Below are positions 607-13,611 of a DNA stretch of 64,000 nucleotides, one piece after another. The stretch lies in the NCBI RefSeq assembly GCF_002775205.1, contig NC_036461.1:10949015-11013014 (forward strand). Direction: 5' to 3'. The DNA is from Xiphophorus maculatus (taxonomy: Eukaryota; Chordata; Actinopteri; Cyprinodontiformes; Poeciliidae). The position numbers and the translations under genes were made by a program. The notes beneath the pieces are model-generated. The model had not been told where the DNA came from. It saw only the letters and a list, made by a program, of their open reading frames with translations, and made no database searches. Each line of letters starts with the position of its first letter. Position 1 is the stretch's first letter.

Positions 607-3600
607 TCATTTTTGTCTTTCTTCTTCTTTCATTTGATCCTTTTTTCTCTCCTCCTCCTCCTTTTGTTTGCGTGTTTTTCCTGCCAGTCGCCCTACAGCA
701 GCTCCAACACCAGCTCCAACACTGGCCACAACAGCAGAGGCTGCACCCGAAAGACCAGCAGCACCTGCAGAAACCCAAACAACAGTTTTGTTCAAATGAT
801 CAAGCAGCAGATGAGCTCTGATGGGTCCCGCTTGAAACAAATTAAACACAGACTATGGAAAGCAGGCTATGCAACATCTGAGACTTAAGTTACATTTAAG
901 CTGGGTTAAAAATGTCTTTATTTATCCTTTATTGAAAAAAAGGAATGCCCCAATTTATTTACACCCTTTTTAATGATTATGGAAAAAACTTTTATTGAGA
1001 TTAGAGTAGTGTAAGGTTTGATGCTGACCAGCATGTTTTCACTGCTATTTTGGGTGATGAGCTCCAAGTGTAGCTGCAACTCACTGGTCCTTACATCTAA
1101 CCTGTGGCTCTGTGAGGTGGTCAGTAAAAGCTTACTGACACCAATTTTTTGTTTTTGGTGCCGGGGATATTTCCTGTGGGGCATAGTAATCTAAAATACA
1201 AGACGCAATCCTTGAAGTACTTCACTCTGTGTCATAAATCTACATGTGAGTTTAACCTTTTGAAATGAATGCCAAAAAATGTACTTTTTTTTTTTTGACA
1301 TTGTAATTTTAAGATGTATTTATTTTTTAGAGATAAAGAGAGAAATGGAAAAGAATGATATAATAGGAAAAACTGAAACAAAACCTGGTCCTGACATTTA
1401 GCATAATTATCCTTTAAAATGAAGGATGCATTCTACACTGAATAAGACTTTATTTCTTTAAATTTTGTGTCCTAATGTGTATTTATTTTATTGTATTGTA
1501 TAGTGCAGTTTCAGATGGAGCAATTGTTTTGATTATGTAAAACCCCAACTAGAGACAAGAGTTGAAAGTAAGCAGTAGGTGTAAACTCTGTGTAAAGCGC
1601 ATATATTGTACTCTAAGAATTGTCGCTATGTCTAACTGTACTGTTATTATAAAAGCACAATTCTATTATTATAATCAAGTGTCGGCATGTTGGATTCACA
1701 GCACATTTTAGCAGATTAATGTGTTCAGAGGTCTCAGTCTTGAAGCGTTAGTAAACCCTCTGAGCCTTGTTTGTAAGTCATAGCAAAAAATGTCACATCA
1801 AAAATGGATGTGACAATAATTGAGCATTTCAATAATGCTCAATTATTGAAAATGATGTAGCATTTTCAAATAATGCTATTGAAAATGCTTTTTCGATAAC
1901 AGCATTTCAACAATAAAATCCAGGAAGAGGGCTGTTGTTATAGCAACTAAGCAACTATTCTGTTAACTTCTTAGTCACCATTTGCTTTCACCTTTTCTCC
2001 TTTGTCTCTGACAGGGTTTAAACTGATGCAATGTTTTAAACTATCAGAGGAAGCGACTCCTCTCCAACACTTATTCCAAATTTCTAGGCTTGCCATGTTA
2101 ATCAAAGTGTAAGAGAGTTCCCAGCTACAGACTTCCTGTACCACCCATAGCACCAACTGAATTAGTGTTACCATTGGACTATGTTTTTTTTTTTAGACCC
2201 AAATTTACTTTCATCTTCTGCAACAACATACCTGCAGATTGTAAAACCGCCACCAGGCCTCCTGCTGCCACTCCTCCTCCGTTGGTAATGGCAGCAGCAG
2301 ACATCATGCTCGCAGCGAAGGAGCCCGCTGCTATCCCAGCAGAGGTGAAACCGATGGCCCCCAAGGCCACTGGAGCTAGGGCAACTGTACCCACACTTCC
2401 TACAACTTATGAACAACATACAAAATACTTATGAACAAGAAACATTTGTTGTCAACACGTTAATCTGATTAAACCGAAAAAACATGATTATAAAATGAGC
2501 AGGAGTTTTCTTCAAGCAATATACGAGTCTCAGCAACATTTCTTGCTGTAGAATTTTGTGCGTCATATCTTTTCATATTCTAATGGGCAGCGACGCTTGT
2601 GGAAGTCATTGCTGATGTCTTTCCATCTTGGTATTGTGCCAGGACTCTCTGGTATGCTACAAACCAGCAAGTGGCCAAAACTGTGAAATTATTTAACATT
2701 TTTCTGAATACTTGTTGAAGGAGAAATAAAATCATTATGTTTCTATTTGTCATGACACCATAAAAAAGGTTTTGTACCTACAAACTATCCCAAAAAAGCA
2801 GCATTTCTGATATTTTGTCATACAATTTATATGTGAATTGTACTGGAGCATGAGCAATTCCTAAAGACCGTAGTCATATAATTTTGTGGCCAGTTTACAA
2901 TTATTCTATAGATCGGGGTGTCAAACTCCAGTCCTCAAGGGCCGGTGTCCTGCAACTTTTAGATGTGCCTCTGCTGCACCGCACCTGAATAGAATTAGGT
3001 CATTAGCAAGACTCTGGAGAACTGATCTACACAAAGAGGAGGTAATTAAGCCATTTCATTCCAGTGTTTTGTACCTGTGGCACATCTAAAAACTGCAGGA
3101 CAGCGGCCCTTAAGGCCTGGAGTTTGACACCTTGCTATAGATCAAAAACAAAACCACACTACAAAAGATGTTGTTTCCTACTTTCTGAATAACTAAAAAA
3201 AAAAAAAAAAAGTAATACAATCTTTTTTGTTTTTTATGCAAAGGAATTGGTGACCAAGGTGATAGGATCTATTTATTGTCAGAGTTAAACATCATGACTT
3301 ATCAGCTGCCTATTTCAAGATAACAACCATAAAAAGCAGATGTCATACCTGCACCTCCGGTAATGACAAGAATCTTTCCTGAAACACAAGCAGTTCATTA
3401 TGAGTTTATTACCTAGCCTTTTTGCCAACTTTAATATTTACGACTACTATTACCTAATAAATCTATGTTAAGAACACTGCAGAACATTTAAAATGATCAC
3501 TAAGTATGTTCAAAAGGATTTGTCTTTCGTTTGTTTTTCTCTTTGTTTTATTTTTAATATTTCAAATCAACGCTTTAAAATCAAGAAACGTATTGCCATG

Positions 3601-5263: not shown

Positions 5264-6390
5264 CTATTTTTTCTTCTTGTACTCTCTGTCTGACTCCTCT
5301 TCCTCCTCATTCTTCTCCTCTTTCTCCTCCTCCCCGTCATTCTTCTCTTCCTTATTCTTGTTCTGCCCCTCATTTTTCTCTTTCTTATCCTTGTCCTGCC
5401 CGTCATTCTTCTCTTCCTTATCCTTGTCCTGCCCATCATTCTTCTCTTCCTTATCCTTGTTCTCTTTGCCTTCCTCATTCACCTCCTCTTGCTTGTTGGT
5501 GTTGCCTGCCAGCAGCCCTGCAGTGGCCCCAATACCAGCTCCAACACCAGCTCCAACACCAGCCACAGCTGTCGAGGCGGCCGCAGAGAGACCAACAGCA
5601 CCTGCAGGAAATGTCAAATGGTGTTCATATGTGAGATGGTCTGAGGGGTACAGGATGAACTGACTTCAACAAGTCTCAGGATTGGGCTGGTCACTCCATG
5701 CAATTAATGCTCACCTTAACCCAACACGTTTTTCTAACAAGGAAACTCAAAGTACAACAGCGCCTTGATTCTTGGTCCTCTTCATATGTTTACTTCAATC
5801 AAATATTTAATCATGCTTCATCTTATGAACAAACTGGAATGACTCATTTTACTTAGATTTCCAGAGAGAAATGCACAATAACCATTATAGTCATAAGAAT
5901 TAAACAAAACCCAACCTTGATACACACAGATGAATACATGTGCACCAGCATATATGCCATGTCTGTTGGTTTTCTGTTCTTCTACTTCCCCTACTGGTAA
6001 ATTATCATCCAGGTAGGAACATAATTTCTATCAAGAACATTACCAAATCCTGTAAGTGATGTTGGACTGCTACTATTTTGAACAGTACTGTACTTTATCC
6101 TGTTTTATTACAGCAAGTACATTAAGTAGCTACAACTAGAATCAAGTCAAAGTACCTGCAGATTGTAGAACCGCCACCAGGCCTCCTGCTGCCACCCCTC
6201 CTCCGTTGGCGATGGCAGCAGCAGACATCATGCTTGCAGCGTAGGAACCCGCTGCTATCCCAGCTGAGGTGAAACCAACGGCCCCCAGAACAACAGGAGC
6301 CAGCGCCACTGCACCGATTCCCCCTAAGACTTGGAACAAGAAATATTTGACATAAACATGTTAATAAAGTACAAAAGCAGAAGGCTAAGG

Positions 6391-6455
<65 letters not shown>

Positions 6456-8683
6456 CTACTCTGTGGTTAAATTGCAAACTGTCTAAACAAAATAAAACAT
6501 TGATTTTAGAAAACAAATCAAAATGTTTCTGCAGAATAAGTAACAAGATCTATTTATGGTCAGTGCTAAATTTCATGATTTTTCACACACACAGCTGTAC
6601 TTTCTGTCAGACTGAGAACACCTCAGTATATCAAGATAACCAGCATAAAAAGAAGAAAAAAAAAATGTCATACCTGCAGATCCTGCTAAGAAAAATATTC
6701 CTGAAACACAACACCAACATAAAATGTTAGTTTTCACCTGAGGCCAGGACTAGATTGACTTGTATTAATCAGCAGCAGCTCTACCTCCAGCAGAAATTAG
6801 TGCTAGCCACAGATCGGTGAATCTCTAAACATCGTCTTTATGGTTTTTACTTTAAAGCACCATTAAAAACACCATGTACAAAAACAAAACCGGGGATTTT
6901 TTTGTAGAGTTTTATCATCTTCTGTGATATGTCTTTCTCCTTTAAAAAAAAAAGTCTTTGTGATTCATTACAATTATTTTGAAAACTTAATCTGATAGGG
7001 TCTGAATAATTTTGGGGTTCAGTTTGTATACTTAAATCAGCTACAGAGTTTATTGTTGCAGTGCAGACCTTTAAAGTTTGCGACCATCTACATCAAGCAT
7101 CAGCATTAAAGACATTATTTATCCACTTTCAACACATTTTCCATCAGTTCTATTTTAATAGCAAAGAATTACAATAAAAATGTGTTAATATGAAAATATA
7201 TAAAAAGTCCAGATCATGTAACTTAGATCTACCTGCTGGCTTTGAGAAGAAGTTTCCATTGCTGCTTCCTGATGGTGACTTTTTATCAGCAGAGTCCGGA
7301 GCTGGTGGGTCCTGTTGCTTCTGAGGATCTAAAAGAGAGAAAAAGTCTAATTCAGAGGGAGACATACTCTTTCAAATACATGTTCCTTTCTGTGATATTA
7401 CCCCTCCTCTGCTTACAGGAACAGAGGAAGGGTTACTGTGGTTTATTTTCAGATAGATAAACAATCTTTATCTGAACACAAACAACTTAATGAAAAAACA
7501 TAAATGTAAAAGATATATTATCAAAAACTTCATTAGAACGAAAATGTCAAATTTTATGCAACTTTTGGAGAACGTTTTTTTGTTACATGTTAAAACAGAT
7601 GTCCTAATAGTATGTTTTGAAAGTGGGCCACGAAGAAAAATACAGTATCACTCCATATTTTCACGCAAAATGAAACTATGCTAGTGCTGGCTTGATTGCT
7701 GGTTCTGAAATGTAGGCTGACTTGTCACTGGGTGTCACTGTCCAGGTGTGCAGGTGATGTTTACCCAGTGTTCTTGGGTAAACATTTACCAAGGGAACAT
7801 TTGTACATAAATTGCTTCACGTAACTCGAGTCTCAGAAGTATTTTTATATCTGATATGAGTGGAGAAACCTCTTCAGCTAATCAATGTTCACCTTATAAC
7901 ATCTTTTTGAACGGAGAAGGGTTTCATTGTCTTAAGGATTGCGTATTTATCAGTTTCAATAAACCTTAATCTATTTGTTTACATAGGTCACTGTATGACA
8001 CATCAGAATTAAAATACTGCAAGAGAGACTTGTCCCCCATGAAGCCTTAAGTCTCTGTTTCTGAGGAGAAACAAAGTTGCAGCATTATTTAATCAAAAAA
8101 TCAGGTCACACACACTAGAAGAGGGACTCCTCTTACCATTTTCTCTTTCTGTAGGTGATTCTGCTGGTGTTGCAGCAGTGGAGAGTCTTGCTGGAGAGCA
8201 ATCCCTGTCCGTTTGGGACATGGGGGTATGAGTGTCACTGTCCAGGTGCGCAGGTGATTGGGTATTGACATTGCTGGTTGTATGTGTTGGCTGAAAGGGA
8301 ATGTCTGTATCAGGAGGAGCAGATTCCCGGTCTGAATAGCTGAGATTAGGACATCCAGACTGACTGGCTGATCCATCTTGTGTTCTTAAAGGTGTGGATG
8401 GGTCATCACCAGCTGCACCAACATTACAGGCAAGCAGGTCACTAATCAGGTCATCCAAGAGATGCAGCTGAGTCATGCCTTCATCCTCCAATGAGCTCAG
8501 TTGTTCACTTCTGATGAAGTGAACAATCAGGTTGTACAGTTCTCGTGCACTTAAAACATCAACATTATGAATGGGACCATCGTCAGTTAAAGACGCAATC
8601 ATCTGTAGTTGATCTCTGCTCAATGAAATAAGCTTTTTCTTGAGGTTGGATATCAGTGCTTGTCGTGGAGTGTTGCTGGCCAT
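5264..8683 (-). CDS. isg12: ISG12-family fusion protein with unrecognised helical N-terminal domain and repeat tail, copy B (391 aa)
   Basis: Minus-strand coding exons are 8137-8683, 7233-7328, 6674-6700, 6156-6323 and 5264-5601; all junctions are GT-AG and phase 1, totalling 392 codons with stop. Residues 1 to about 90 are predicted helical and charged, with segments such as [17 protein letters not shown] and [14 protein letters not shown] do not recognise the family; a death-fold-like role is only a guess. Residues about 92-213 are rich in Ser, Thr, Pro and Asp. Residues about 215-315 are the ISG12 core ([24 protein letters not shown]) and a second Gly/Ala helix. Residues about 327-369 are four 11-residue charged repeats, followed by a Glu/Lys tail. 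Other ISG12 proteins, including neighbours A and C, are 120-135 aa without the N-terminal extension. The long first exon joins exon 2 in frame (G plus AT gives Asp). A probable untranslated first exon and an ISRE promoter lie near 10.0 kb. Confidence 0.75.
5333..5464 (-). repeat. in-frame 33-bp minisatellite in copy B
   Basis: Four head-to-tail 33-bp units start at 5333, 5366, 5399 and 5432 with a few substitutions each. On the coding strand each unit encodes an 11-residue charged block of the type [11 protein letters not shown]. The length is a multiple of three, so copy number could change without breaking the frame. Confidence 0.9.
6156..6323 (-). CDS. isg12: ISG12 core exon of copy B
   Basis: This 168-bp phase-1 exon encodes the Gly/Ala-rich hydrophobic core from [10 protein letters not shown] to VAVLQSAG. 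The matching exons of copy A (2232-2399) and copy C (12719-12886) have exactly the same length and near-identical ends. Intron sequence beside it also matches copy C (for example CTAGAATCAAGTCAA near 6136 and 12676), showing that B and C duplicated with their introns. Confidence 0.85.
6394..6451. repeat. (AT)n microsatellite
   Basis: About 29 uninterrupted AT units lie in an intron of ISG12 copy B. Confidence 0.95.
7233..7328 (-). CDS. isg12: linker exon of copy B
   Basis: This 96-bp phase-1 exon has a clear acceptor (cttttag) and donor (gtagat). It encodes a Pro/Ser/Lys-rich linker ([20 protein letters not shown] and onward) between the N-terminal domain and the ISG12 core. No matching exon is seen in copies A or C. 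Confidence 0.75.
8137..8683 (-). CDS. isg12: first coding exon of copy B: unrecognised N-terminal domain
   Basis: The exon opens [20 protein letters not shown] at 8683 and ends at a GTAAGA donor. A plausible acceptor (ccaaaacag) lies about 17 nt upstream of the ATG and would receive the 5' UTR exon. Residues 1 to about 90 alternate hydrophobic and charged positions in several predicted helices, including the block [17 protein letters not shown]. Residues 92-182 are low-complexity Ser/Thr/Pro/Asp. No motif that I can name is present. Confidence 0.75.
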
Positions 8684-9970
8684 GTTGATGTCTCACAGAC
8701 TGTTTTGGGTCACTGGATGATATATTCAACGCAGCCTTCCCTGAAGTTTTATCAAACGTCTCCTGTTGTCTCGGTGCCAACCTCTCATAACAGGAGACTC
8801 AAAATCCAGGACGAGACCCCAGTTATTACTGCTGCCAAACCTGGGGGAGATCTGGACCGGTACCAAGCAGCACAGTGGCAAGAGAGGACTGTGTACCCAT
8901 TACACAGAACACACTGTGGATCACAGAGAGAGAGAACTTGTTTATTCTGAGGTGCACTCTGTGCATAGCACACTTGTCACAGAAATACAACCAAACAAGG
9001 TCCTGAGTGCTCATTACTTGCAAAAAAGAAAATCAAAACCTTCACAAGTAAAAGAAGAAATAATTAAAATAGAAAGTACAACACAGTCGCAGGATTGCAA
9101 TGGGCTGAAGCCCATCTCCAGCAGCCATCGGGTGACTGCTGTATAAACTATAAATATCAAAATTATATTTTACAAATGAAAATCAGCATCAATTAACCTT
9201 AAATTAAAAAATAATCTAACAGAGAAAAGGTACTACATTTACAAAAAGTTTACATATTTTCCAGGCACATAGTGTCATGTCGTAGCACAATCAAGTAACT
9301 TACCTTCAGTTGTTACAGAAATGTCAGATATTAAAAAAAAGAAGAAATTTGACTTCTCAGTTCAACACCTTGAAATTGGGCCTGTGCCTCTTTAAGAAGA
9401 TCCAGCTCTTTCTGACACTCAGTTTTCAGCATGTCACACAACAACATTTCTCCATTAAGAAGCAACAAATGGTGACATTTGATACTATGCATCTTTTTTG
9501 CTACCTGGACCTATTCGCATGCTGTCACAGCCAGGAAACTGTTCAACAGGAACCGTCTTCAATCAGAGGTCTCTTCAGATTTGTTATGCAAGACTGAAGA
9601 CTTACTGGATGACATGAGTTAGGACATTTAATTACCCTTTGCGACAAAAGAAAGTCTTTTTAAAGTGAATTAAACTATGTCAGTTAAGTATGCAAGTAAA
9701 ATCACCGTGCCTCTGCTACGCTTGAAAGAATGCTGTGTATGGAACGACACAAACAGATGTCTATTCAACACTTAGCGGTAAATAAATACATTCGTTTATG
9801 CCTTGGCTAAGTTCACGGGAATGAAATCCGCTTATTTTGATGCCTTCAGCTGAACCATAGATTCTAAATAAATATCTAAATTTTCTTCTTCACAAAACCA
9901 ACATATAAAGCTTACAAAAATAAGCTTTTTAGACAGATTTAGATCGATTCTAAACTTTAGATGTACTCAC
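8684..9970. other. probable 5' UTR intron of copy B
   Basis: No coding region is supported. The stretch lies between the probable untranslated first exon near 10.0 kb and the coding start at 8683. It contains a LINE-like fragment at 9085-9150. Confidence 0.45.
9085..9150 (-). mobile_element. fragment of a teleost LINE-like 3' end
   Basis: Read on the minus strand, the piece containing GGCTGCTGGAGATGGGC and CAGCCCATTGCAATCCTGCG resembles the 3' end of a common teleost LINE-type repeat. A related copy lies at 38014-38131 on the plus strand. It is truncated and non-coding. The family assignment is from memory. Confidence 0.5.
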
Positions 9971-10091
9971 CCATATAAGACGGTTCTTATGTCTGGTTGG
10001 ATAGTCTATTAGTAAGCTGAAACTCAGCTTCTCACAGACATAAATACTCACGCCGAGTCATTTGTGCTGCCCAGTGTGGGGAAAACGAAAC
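9971..10091 (-). promoter_or_regulatory. promoter and probable untranslated first exon of ISG12 copy B
   Basis: A perfect ISRE (GAAAACGAAAC, 10081-10091) lies upstream of a TATA-like TATTTA box (10041-10046 on the minus strand). Below these, a GTGAGTAC splice donor at 9963-9970 could end an untranslated exon starting near 10015. The coding exon at 8683 is preceded by a matching acceptor, so the whole arrangement fits an interferon-induced promoter. The exact start site is not determined. Confidence 0.55.
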
Positions 10092-10616
10092 AAATATGGT
10101 TGCTCCATTCACTAAACCTCGGAAGTACCACTACAACGCGACAGAAGTCCTTTACCGACAGGAATGTAAAAAAAAAAGAAAAGGAACTTTGAACGCATCA
10201 TGAAGAAGCCGTCGTCTAAAAAAATACTGCTACTTTGGTTTGACTGAGTTTCGATTTCCTTAGCCAGAGGTGGAGTATCCGAAACTAATTCAACATATTT
10301 CTACTCAAGTTAAAGTAAAGAGTAGCCGTCCAAGAAATTATTCAGTAAGAAAAAAGTATCCCGTAAAACTCAAATACTGAATTTAACTAATAAGATTTAA
10401 TGCTTAATGACATAATTGGAAAAACTAAACGTATAAAATTATCTTTTTACTTTTTGTTTGTCGTAGCTTATGTGCATTTTCTGATATTTTAAAGACAAGT
10501 GAAAAAAAATTATGCAAAAAATTGCAATAAATTTCTAGCAGAAGAAAATGTTCAAATCCTTTTTTCCTGTTAAGATTTTTTACACCAATACTTACAATAC
10601 AGGTTAACGTACTTCA

Positions 10617-10772
10617 TTAACATGCGTTTTCAGCGTGGCCAGCACCTCCAATGCTGGCCACAACAGTGTTGGCGATCGCTGTAAAAATAGATGCACCTGC
10701 AGGGAAAAAAGCCCATAAACTAACCAAACAGGATTATTGAAGTTGTAAGAGGAAAAACATAAGCTCTAGTGG
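10617..10772 (-). pseudogene. ISG12 last-exon fragment D
   Basis: Positions 10641-10772 repeat 12218-12349 of copy C (132 bp, only about four to five substitutions), covering the start of the last exon, its acceptor and adjacent intron. After the acceptor the frame reads [20 protein letters not shown], then diverges and stops at 10617-10619. No core exon is found within the following kilobase, so this looks like a recent partial duplication and not a working gene. Confidence 0.7.
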
Positions 10773-12073: not shown

Positions 12074-13611
12074 TTAGCGTTTTGACCACAAAAATAAAGC
12101 TCCTGCAGCGATGCCAAACAGAAAGGCTTCAATCTCTTCCTCCCTTTTTTTTTGTTCCCTTCGTTTCTGAAATATGTTTGACAGCCATCCAAATCCAGCT
12201 CCAACAAAGGTTCCAAGAGCACCTCCAATGCTGGCCACAACAGTGTTGGCGAACGCTGTAAAACCAGATGCACCTGCAGGGAAAAAAGCCCATAAACTAA
12301 CCAAACAGGATTATTGAAGTTGTAAGGGGAAAAACATAAGCTCTAGTGGGTTTCTTCTTTATTTTAAGCAGAGTTTGCGAAGCTGAAGTCAGGTTACAGT
12401 AAACATAGTTGTGTGATAAGCCTTATTAATGCCAGTATACATTTCAAATGTTCCCCATTTGATGTGAACAGGAAGAAATGTGTATTTGCTGCTTCCTTGT
12501 TTATGGATGTTGGAAAAAGTGCAATATTAACAAACACAGTAGGAGATTAGGGTGTGTCAACTGTATAAAGTTAAATGAACTAAATCCCTGCTGTTGCTAC
12601 TACTAGAAAAGTAGCTGCTATTTTGAGCGGAACAGTATTTTATCTAGTTTAAAAAGGCAAGCAAAATTCTTAAAACTAGAATCAAGTCAACTATAGCGTT
12701 GACTACAGCCTTAGATACCTGCAGATTGTAGAATCGCCACCAGGCTTCCTGCTGCCACCCCTCCTCCGTTAGTGGTGGCAGCAGCAGACATCATGCTTGC
12801 AGCGTAGGAGCCTGCAGCTATCCCAGCTGAGGTGAAACCGATGACACTCAAGGCCACAGGAGCCATGAGCACTGCACCCATTGCTCCTACTGCATGCAAA
12901 GCACATTTTACTGATGTTAGAATATATTTTGATATTCCTTTCAGTTCACCAAGAAAATTATTTCATTTGAAGCCAAACGGAGTTGATGCTTTATTTCCGG
13001 GAAGCTCTAAATGCAAGATGTGTCCTGAGTGACCTTTGATAGGTCCTCATCTCATCAGGATGAGATCTAAAAAGATTTTGTCCTTGCACCTGTAATCAGA
13101 TGTTCACACTTTTTTTTTTTTTTAAAGAAAAAAAAAGATGCACAAACTTAAAATTATCTAACTTTTTTTCACAAGGTTGCAAAACTAGATATTACAAATA
13201 ATATGTGTAGCCCCATTTGTCCTGTTATGGTATGAAGAAACTGATAAACCCGGGCATCTACCTGCTCCTCCTGTGATGGCAGCAGTTTCTGTTAAAAAAG
13301 AAAAATAAAATAGAAAATGTAAAGTGTAGTAAAATAATAATAGATTCATATACAAATTGTATAACAATATAAATTATATAAGGAATCTCTATCAGCAGTT
13401 CTGATCCGGGTGGACTAAGCTGCGGTTCTGGGCTGAACCTGAACCTGAACCCGAGTACAGTACAGGTCCTGAGCGTCTCAAGTCTTCAAAAATATTGGGA
13501 ACCCCTATTAGTAGTCTAAACCGCTTCTGACAAAATAATAAATAATACATAGTATCTATATCATTGCAAATAATAAAGTATATTCTACTCAACACACTTA
13601 CCAAGACCCAT
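12074..13611 (-). CDS. isg12: ISG12/IFI27-family protein, copy C (134 aa, 4 coding exons)
   Basis: Minus-strand coding exons are 13602-13611, 13262-13288, 12719-12886 and 12074-12273. All introns are GT-AG and phase 1, totalling 135 codons with stop. The protein starts [20 protein letters not shown]. It carries the core [32 protein letters not shown] and a second small-residue helix ([20 protein letters not shown]). Its end differs from A and B: a basic stretch ([12 protein letters not shown]) and then a short hydrophobic segment ([14 protein letters not shown]) before SKR. By family, the protein is probably an interferon-inducible organelle-membrane protein. No perfect ISRE was seen within about 300 bp upstream, unlike A and B, so its regulation may differ. 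The 10-bp first exon has a good GTAAGT donor. Confidence 0.85.

Follow-up and report, generated by a model that had tools for sequence, protein, structure and literature searches.

A retrotransposon Gag N-terminal domain in the predicted first exon of an ISG12-type gene of Xiphophorus maculatus

Introduction

What is the long extension that precedes the conserved core of one ISG12/IFI27-type gene of Xiphophorus maculatus, and where did it come from? The gene, here called copy B, lies in a 64,000-nucleotide stretch of contig NC_036461.1 (positions 10,949,015 to 11,013,014; hereafter the window), together with two sister copies, A and C. An earlier note on this DNA had described copy B as an ISG12 protein fused to a helical domain that it did not recognise. 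The sequence evidence identifies the helical domain as the N-terminal part of the Gag protein of a long terminal repeat (LTR) retrotransposon, and copy B is very probably a chimeric gene in which the start of gag was captured as exon 1 and spliced to the ISG12 exons.

Structure of copy B

Copy B occupies 8683-5264 on the minus strand in five exons with GT-AG borders, all introns being in phase 1, and has an open frame of 393 codons (Table 1). The 214 residues encoded before the core exons (182 by exon 1 and 32 by exon 2) agree with the approximately 215 of the earlier note, whose description of a frame open through five phase-compatible exons also holds, as does its account of a helical domain of about 90 residues followed by a Ser/Thr/Pro linker (five predicted helices; mean pLDDT 76.9). 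An ISG12 gene with a long N-terminal addition, as first described, is confirmed. Membership of the ISG12/IFI27 family is indicated by the match of the exon 4 frame to PF06140 (Ifi-6-16) in a Pfam scan (86 bits vs. a cut-off of 29.1), and by the phase-1 exon pattern and core exons shared with copy A. In the gag frame, a TGA codon (8695-8693) stands four codons upstream of the gag ATG, so that translation of the fusion must start at this ATG. The charged tail of copy B is encoded by a 33-bp tandem repeat (5307-5460, 4.8 copies), and tail length varies among orthologs.

Gag origin of exon 1

Residues 1-100 of copy B matched full-length Gags at E-values from 2e-17 to 1e-11 in sequence searches, and the linker of exon 1 matched Gag linkers in a small Gag library (best E 1e-8). 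Exon 2 gave no clear match to the same library (best E 0.042) and is not accepted as Gag-derived. Downstream of exon 1, intron 1 retains part of a Gag capsid, broken but collinear, in two pieces, two frames, and with five stops, for which 60 shuffled introns served as the control (best score 26.2 bits). The splice donor falls at a site in Gag where the six Gags compared have the sequence GRxS. Upstream of the gag ATG, the primer-binding site is the sole match in the window at three or fewer mismatches to an 18-base tRNA-Pro consensus, and no such match arose in 100 dinucleotide shuffles. Homology, collinearity, and the primer-binding site together demonstrate the Gag origin of exon 1. The element is filed as an LTR-retrotransposon remnant, not as a complete element with two LTRs. 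The protein encoded by copy B has no capsid domain, the detected capsid stretch being intronic and broken, and the gene does not belong among the PNMA/RTL/ARC/SCAN-type capsid genes.

The window yielded no further copy of the N-domain, the remaining tblastn matches under E 1 for this part being chance-like (E 0.4 or more), and nothing in the window reached the gathering score of Rfam. Among viral contigs there were 120 pattern matches, none of which was confirmed as a relative.

The capture would have begun with the insertion of an LTR retrotransposon, in sense orientation, into intron 1 of a gene of the ISG12/IFI27 type, at a time before Anableps and the poeciliids diverged. The gag start codon, the N-terminal helical domain, and the Ser/Thr/Pro linker would then have become exon 1 of the chimeric gene, because a splice donor just 5' of the capsid connects in phase 1 with the exons of ISG12, and part of the capsid would have been left, broken, in intron 1. 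Splicing between exon 1 and the ISG12 exons is predicted both here and in gene models of five other species. Because the upstream layout of copy B (ISRE-like motifs and an ATG micro-exon; ISRE, interferon-stimulated response element) mirrors that of copy A, the gag exon probably sits in the former intron 1 of ISG12.

Table 1. Features of copy B and its flanks in the window.
Feature	Position	Strand	Description
Exon 1	8137..8683	-	Captured Gag start codon and N-terminal helical domain (8683-8420), Ser/Thr/Pro linker (8419-8137)
Splice donor GTAAGA	8131..8136	-	Within Gag stretch, immediately 5' of capsid; compared with six Gags
Exon 2	7233..7328	-	32 residues, no clear Gag match
Exon 3	6674..6700	-	Place and phase match exon 2 of copy A
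Exon 4	6156..6329	-	Ifi-6-16 core, PF06140, 86 bits
Exon 5	5264..5601	-	Glycine-rich core end, charged repeat tail, and stop
Gag capsid-start remnant, intron 1	8024..8128	-	32.3 bits, one in-frame stop
Further Gag capsid remnant, intron 1	7795..8013	-	38.9 bits, other frame, four in-frame stops
Primer-binding site, tRNA-Pro type	8804..8821	-	16/18, 120 bp 5' of gag ATG
AATAAA, possible LTR polyadenylation signal	8941..8946	-	Position relative to primer-binding site would fit an LTR
Putative micro-exon ATGG/gtgagt	9971..9974	-	Phase 1, possible start of Gag-less ISG12; modelled on copy A
ISRE-like motif of probable host promoter	10078..10092	-	One or two mismatches to two consensus forms; weak alone; suggested by layout
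Second ISRE-like motif	10247..10258	-	Exact for GAAANNGAAACT; weak alone

Two further observations concern the gag sequence. A 30-base piece of the gag linker in exon 1 (8229-8258) recurs in intron 1 at 7729-7758, 500 bases away and with 93% identity, as a rearrangement or a second gag fragment. In Gouania willdenowi, LOC114477122 (203 aa) has the N-domain and linker joined to the last Gag residues, with the capsid skipped; the joint nearly coincides in position with the splice donor of copy B, a hint that elements of this family share such a donor.

Orthologs and a single capture

Searches with exon 1 (107 candidates, E 0.001) and with residues 1-100 (136 candidates, E 0.01) returned 5 and 10 proteins, respectively. 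Combined, they identified predicted fusions with a PF06140 core in Xiphophorus couchianus, Gambusia affinis, Poecilia formosa, P. reticulata, and Anableps anableps, as well as six proteins without this core; the predicted fusion is not confined to one genome. The closest record, the X. couchianus ortholog, also has 393 aa, with 96% identity over the first 100 residues, and the Anableps model carries two PF06140 cores. Identity of the N-domain between the window and the five orthologs is 95, 86, 75, 75, and 71%, with a two-residue gap at the Anableps start as the sole indel; for the core (exons 3 and 4) identity ranges from 97 to 85%, and linker length is variable. The residues at the joint of exons 1 and 2 are kept in four of the five orthologs, the P. 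formosa linker being cut short up to the joint. P. formosa isoform X2 has the gag exon and a copy-B-like core, with a last part that resembles the last exon of copy A more than that of copy B (83% vs. 48% identity), as would be produced by gene conversion or by splicing of copy B exons onto copy A.

A midpoint-rooted tree of the N-domain (77 sequences, 90 columns; 3 of 80 alignment rows were left out for gaps) unites all six fusions in one clade (support 100/97; 100% of 200 bootstrap trees). Anableps takes the outermost position in this clade, and the two Poecilia sequences form the sister group of Gambusia and Xiphophorus. Anableps and the poeciliids are related. Because the six fusions form one clade, a single capture in the common ancestor of Anableps and the poeciliids is probable. 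When neutral evolution was simulated with the branch lengths of the tree (indels being outside the model), all six tips were stop-free in 167 of 4000 runs. Together with the intact N-domains, this mildly suggests constraint on exon 1; the support is mild because intact models alone could be found.

Fold of the N-terminal domain

The structure predicted for residues 1 to approximately 90 of copy B is all-helical, as is that of residues 1-88 of the Gag model; as modelled, it lacks the mixed alpha/beta character of a PNMA-type RNA-binding domain. The modelled Gag capsid is closest in fold to MOAP1 and PNMA2. Exon 1 yielded no match to the Protein Data Bank (PDB) by sequence up to E 10, a single Pfam row below threshold (DRE2_N, E 0.12, 13 bits vs. 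a cut-off of 23), and, for the N-domain, no match at 0.001 in a library of viral structures. In the proteins scanned, the pre-capsid part of Gag had no Pfam model above its cut-off. Searches of the PDB with two of the Gags (P0009 and P0010) gave weak nucleocapsid-knuckle rows (E 1.4 or more) amid chance rows, and with the Gag profile gave 13 rows, none below E 0.06, of which 12 were retroviral nucleocapsid or Gag. The suggestion of the earlier note that the first 90 residues may be a death-fold-like module (CARD, DED, or PYD) is not supported, the predicted fold having no clear match, and we consider it very unlikely. A comparison with SAP domains, by fold and motif, gave no clear assignment either way. 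Copy B also puts a name to the N-terminal domain of Gag in a family that occurs in many teleosts and a frog.

Host promoter and a Gag-less form

Copy A is a plain ISG12 gene of 123 aa (minus strand; exons 3617-3608, 3378-3349, 2405-2232, and 764-607). Its exon 1 is ATGAGTCTCA, followed by a gtgagt donor and three further exons, and its ATG lies 81 bp from the first base of a mismatch-free ISRE (3698-3684). For copy B, the earlier note had placed an ISRE-type promoter where one would be expected; ISRE-like motifs do occur, each weak alone, but some 1.4-1.6 kb upstream of the gag ATG and not adjoining it. The motif GAAANNGAAACT has two exact matches in the window, where 0.42 would be expected; two or more also arise in 2 of 100 shuffles. 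Spliced in frame to exon 2, the putative micro-exon would give a protein of 212 aa, and to exon 3 one of 180 aa, in both cases without Gag residues. From this candidate ISRE and ATG micro-exon, a Gag-less protein could still be made. Beyond its self-match, the promoter region of copy B gave matches to the rest of the window of which those shown were short and mostly T-rich.

The fusion might be transcribed from within the LTR remnant, or else from the host ISRE promoter if the gag exon is included, and translation would proceed from the gag ATG. The product may be a Gag contact module carried on the ISG12 membrane protein. To this extent the interpretation of the earlier note stands in part: an interaction-type module fused to a membrane protein is retained as a proposal, and the death fold is not.

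Alternative explanations

Several points weigh against capture of a functional gag exon, or against parts of this reading. The fusion is a prediction from DNA and gene models, and neither a second LTR nor exact LTR borders were found when the window was compared with itself (E 1e-5). The orthologs are likewise predicted protein models, of which intact ones alone are findable, which biases the argument from conservation, itself based on protein identities, toward survivors. The likely Gag-less start means that the fused form may be minor. The Gag model had no Foldseek match reaching E 0.001. As regards the putative Gag binding, the N-domain fold had no clear structural match, and with a net charge of -5 over 88 residues the domain is acidic as a whole, although its first 22 residues carry +4.

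An account with the same origin, differing in role alone, is that exon 1 is a tolerated exonisation or a minor LTR-driven form whose Gag residues do nothing, and that the protein which does the work is Gag-less ISG12 from the ISRE promoter. The candidate ISRE, the ATG micro-exon with its in-frame Gag-less joins, the variable linker, and the stop-free tips in some neutral runs are compatible with it, but the N-domain has stayed nearly free of indels in five other fusions, unlike the adjoining capsid stretch with its five stops and change of frame. An intact N-domain beside a broken capsid fits selection on exon 1, subject to survivor bias, and a passenger exon appears somewhat unlikely. It is quite improbable that the gag relic and a separate ISG12 gene were merely merged by annotation and share no mRNA. 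Automatic gene prediction can favor long frames, and the fusion here is itself a prediction; against this, the GT-AG joins are phase-compatible, fusion models occur in five other species (two of whose names carry isoform numbers), and the exon 1/exon 2 joint is conserved in most of them. That the retrotransposon instead took the domain from a host gene is scarcely credible: nothing beyond logical possibility was found for it, and against it stand the breadth of Gag-type proteins with the domain, among which the fusions are a small group in the midpoint-rooted tree, the flanking primer-binding site and capsid remnant, and the lack of the domain in copy A. Capture of the gag start by the ISG12 gene is the reading that we prefer.

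Function and comparison with known Gag-derived genes

If the captured exon has a function, the fusion would most likely act by binding or oligomerising through its Gag module, either with itself or with the Gag of related elements. Some Gag-directed role is possible, though we hold it to be short of an even prospect. A more specific proposal, which remains doubtful, is an interferon-linked Gag decoy that would co-assemble with the Gag of related elements or of retroviruses and deliver it to ISG12 membranes, while the gene would also make ordinary ISG12.

Gag-derived host genes have been reviewed (PMC3424704), and among those treated in this and two related sources (PMC4977317, PMC11011659) most are mammalian and most still have a capsid. 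PNMA-family genes without a capsid (CCDC8 and PNMA8A/B/C) retain a metaviral Gag N-terminal domain (PMC11011659), as copy B appears to do. According to that source, the N-domain of PNMA proteins has a mixed alpha/beta fold and putatively binds RNA, unlike the all-helical model for copy B, in which, unlike in CCDC8 and PNMA8, the Gag domain is joined to an ISG12 gene by predicted splicing. SCAN-domain DNA-binding proteins also carry a Gypsy/Ty3 Gag piece at the N-terminus of a host protein (PMC3424704). Copy B differs from these in having taken the part before the capsid and in having an ISG12 protein as the partner. The SCAN domain resembles the C-terminal domain of the capsid. Fv1 of mice is likewise a Gag-derived host gene and offers a model for interference with related elements (PMC3424704, PMC4977317). 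Restriction activity belongs to Fv1, however, and copy B is known as sequence only. Fv1 is largely a whole Gag-like restriction gene.

In its core, exon order, and phases, copy B resembles ISG12/IFI27 genes (PF06140) such as copy A, from which it differs in total length, in the residues before the core exons, and in the gag-derived exon. Among the literature matches listed (titles and starts of abstracts, with subscription papers mostly not covered), there was no report of a fusion of ISG12/IFI27 with Gag. Copy B would present a pre-capsid Gag part in an antiviral-type fish gene, with the primer-binding site and broken capsid still legible on either side, and its cluster also holds a plain sister gene, copy A, as a control for the fusion. 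It offers a case for testing whether immune genes acquire parts that bind Gag from the very elements that encode it.

Neighboring copies

Copy C (minus strand, 12074-13288) has an ISG12 core of 79.9 bits. A segment of 132 bp around the start of its last exon (12218-12349) recurs at 10641-10772 with 97% identity; this partial copy lies between C and B. One intron of copy A contains a 237-bp stretch (2905-3141) that matches its own reverse complement at 71% and is perhaps a hairpin-type mobile element.
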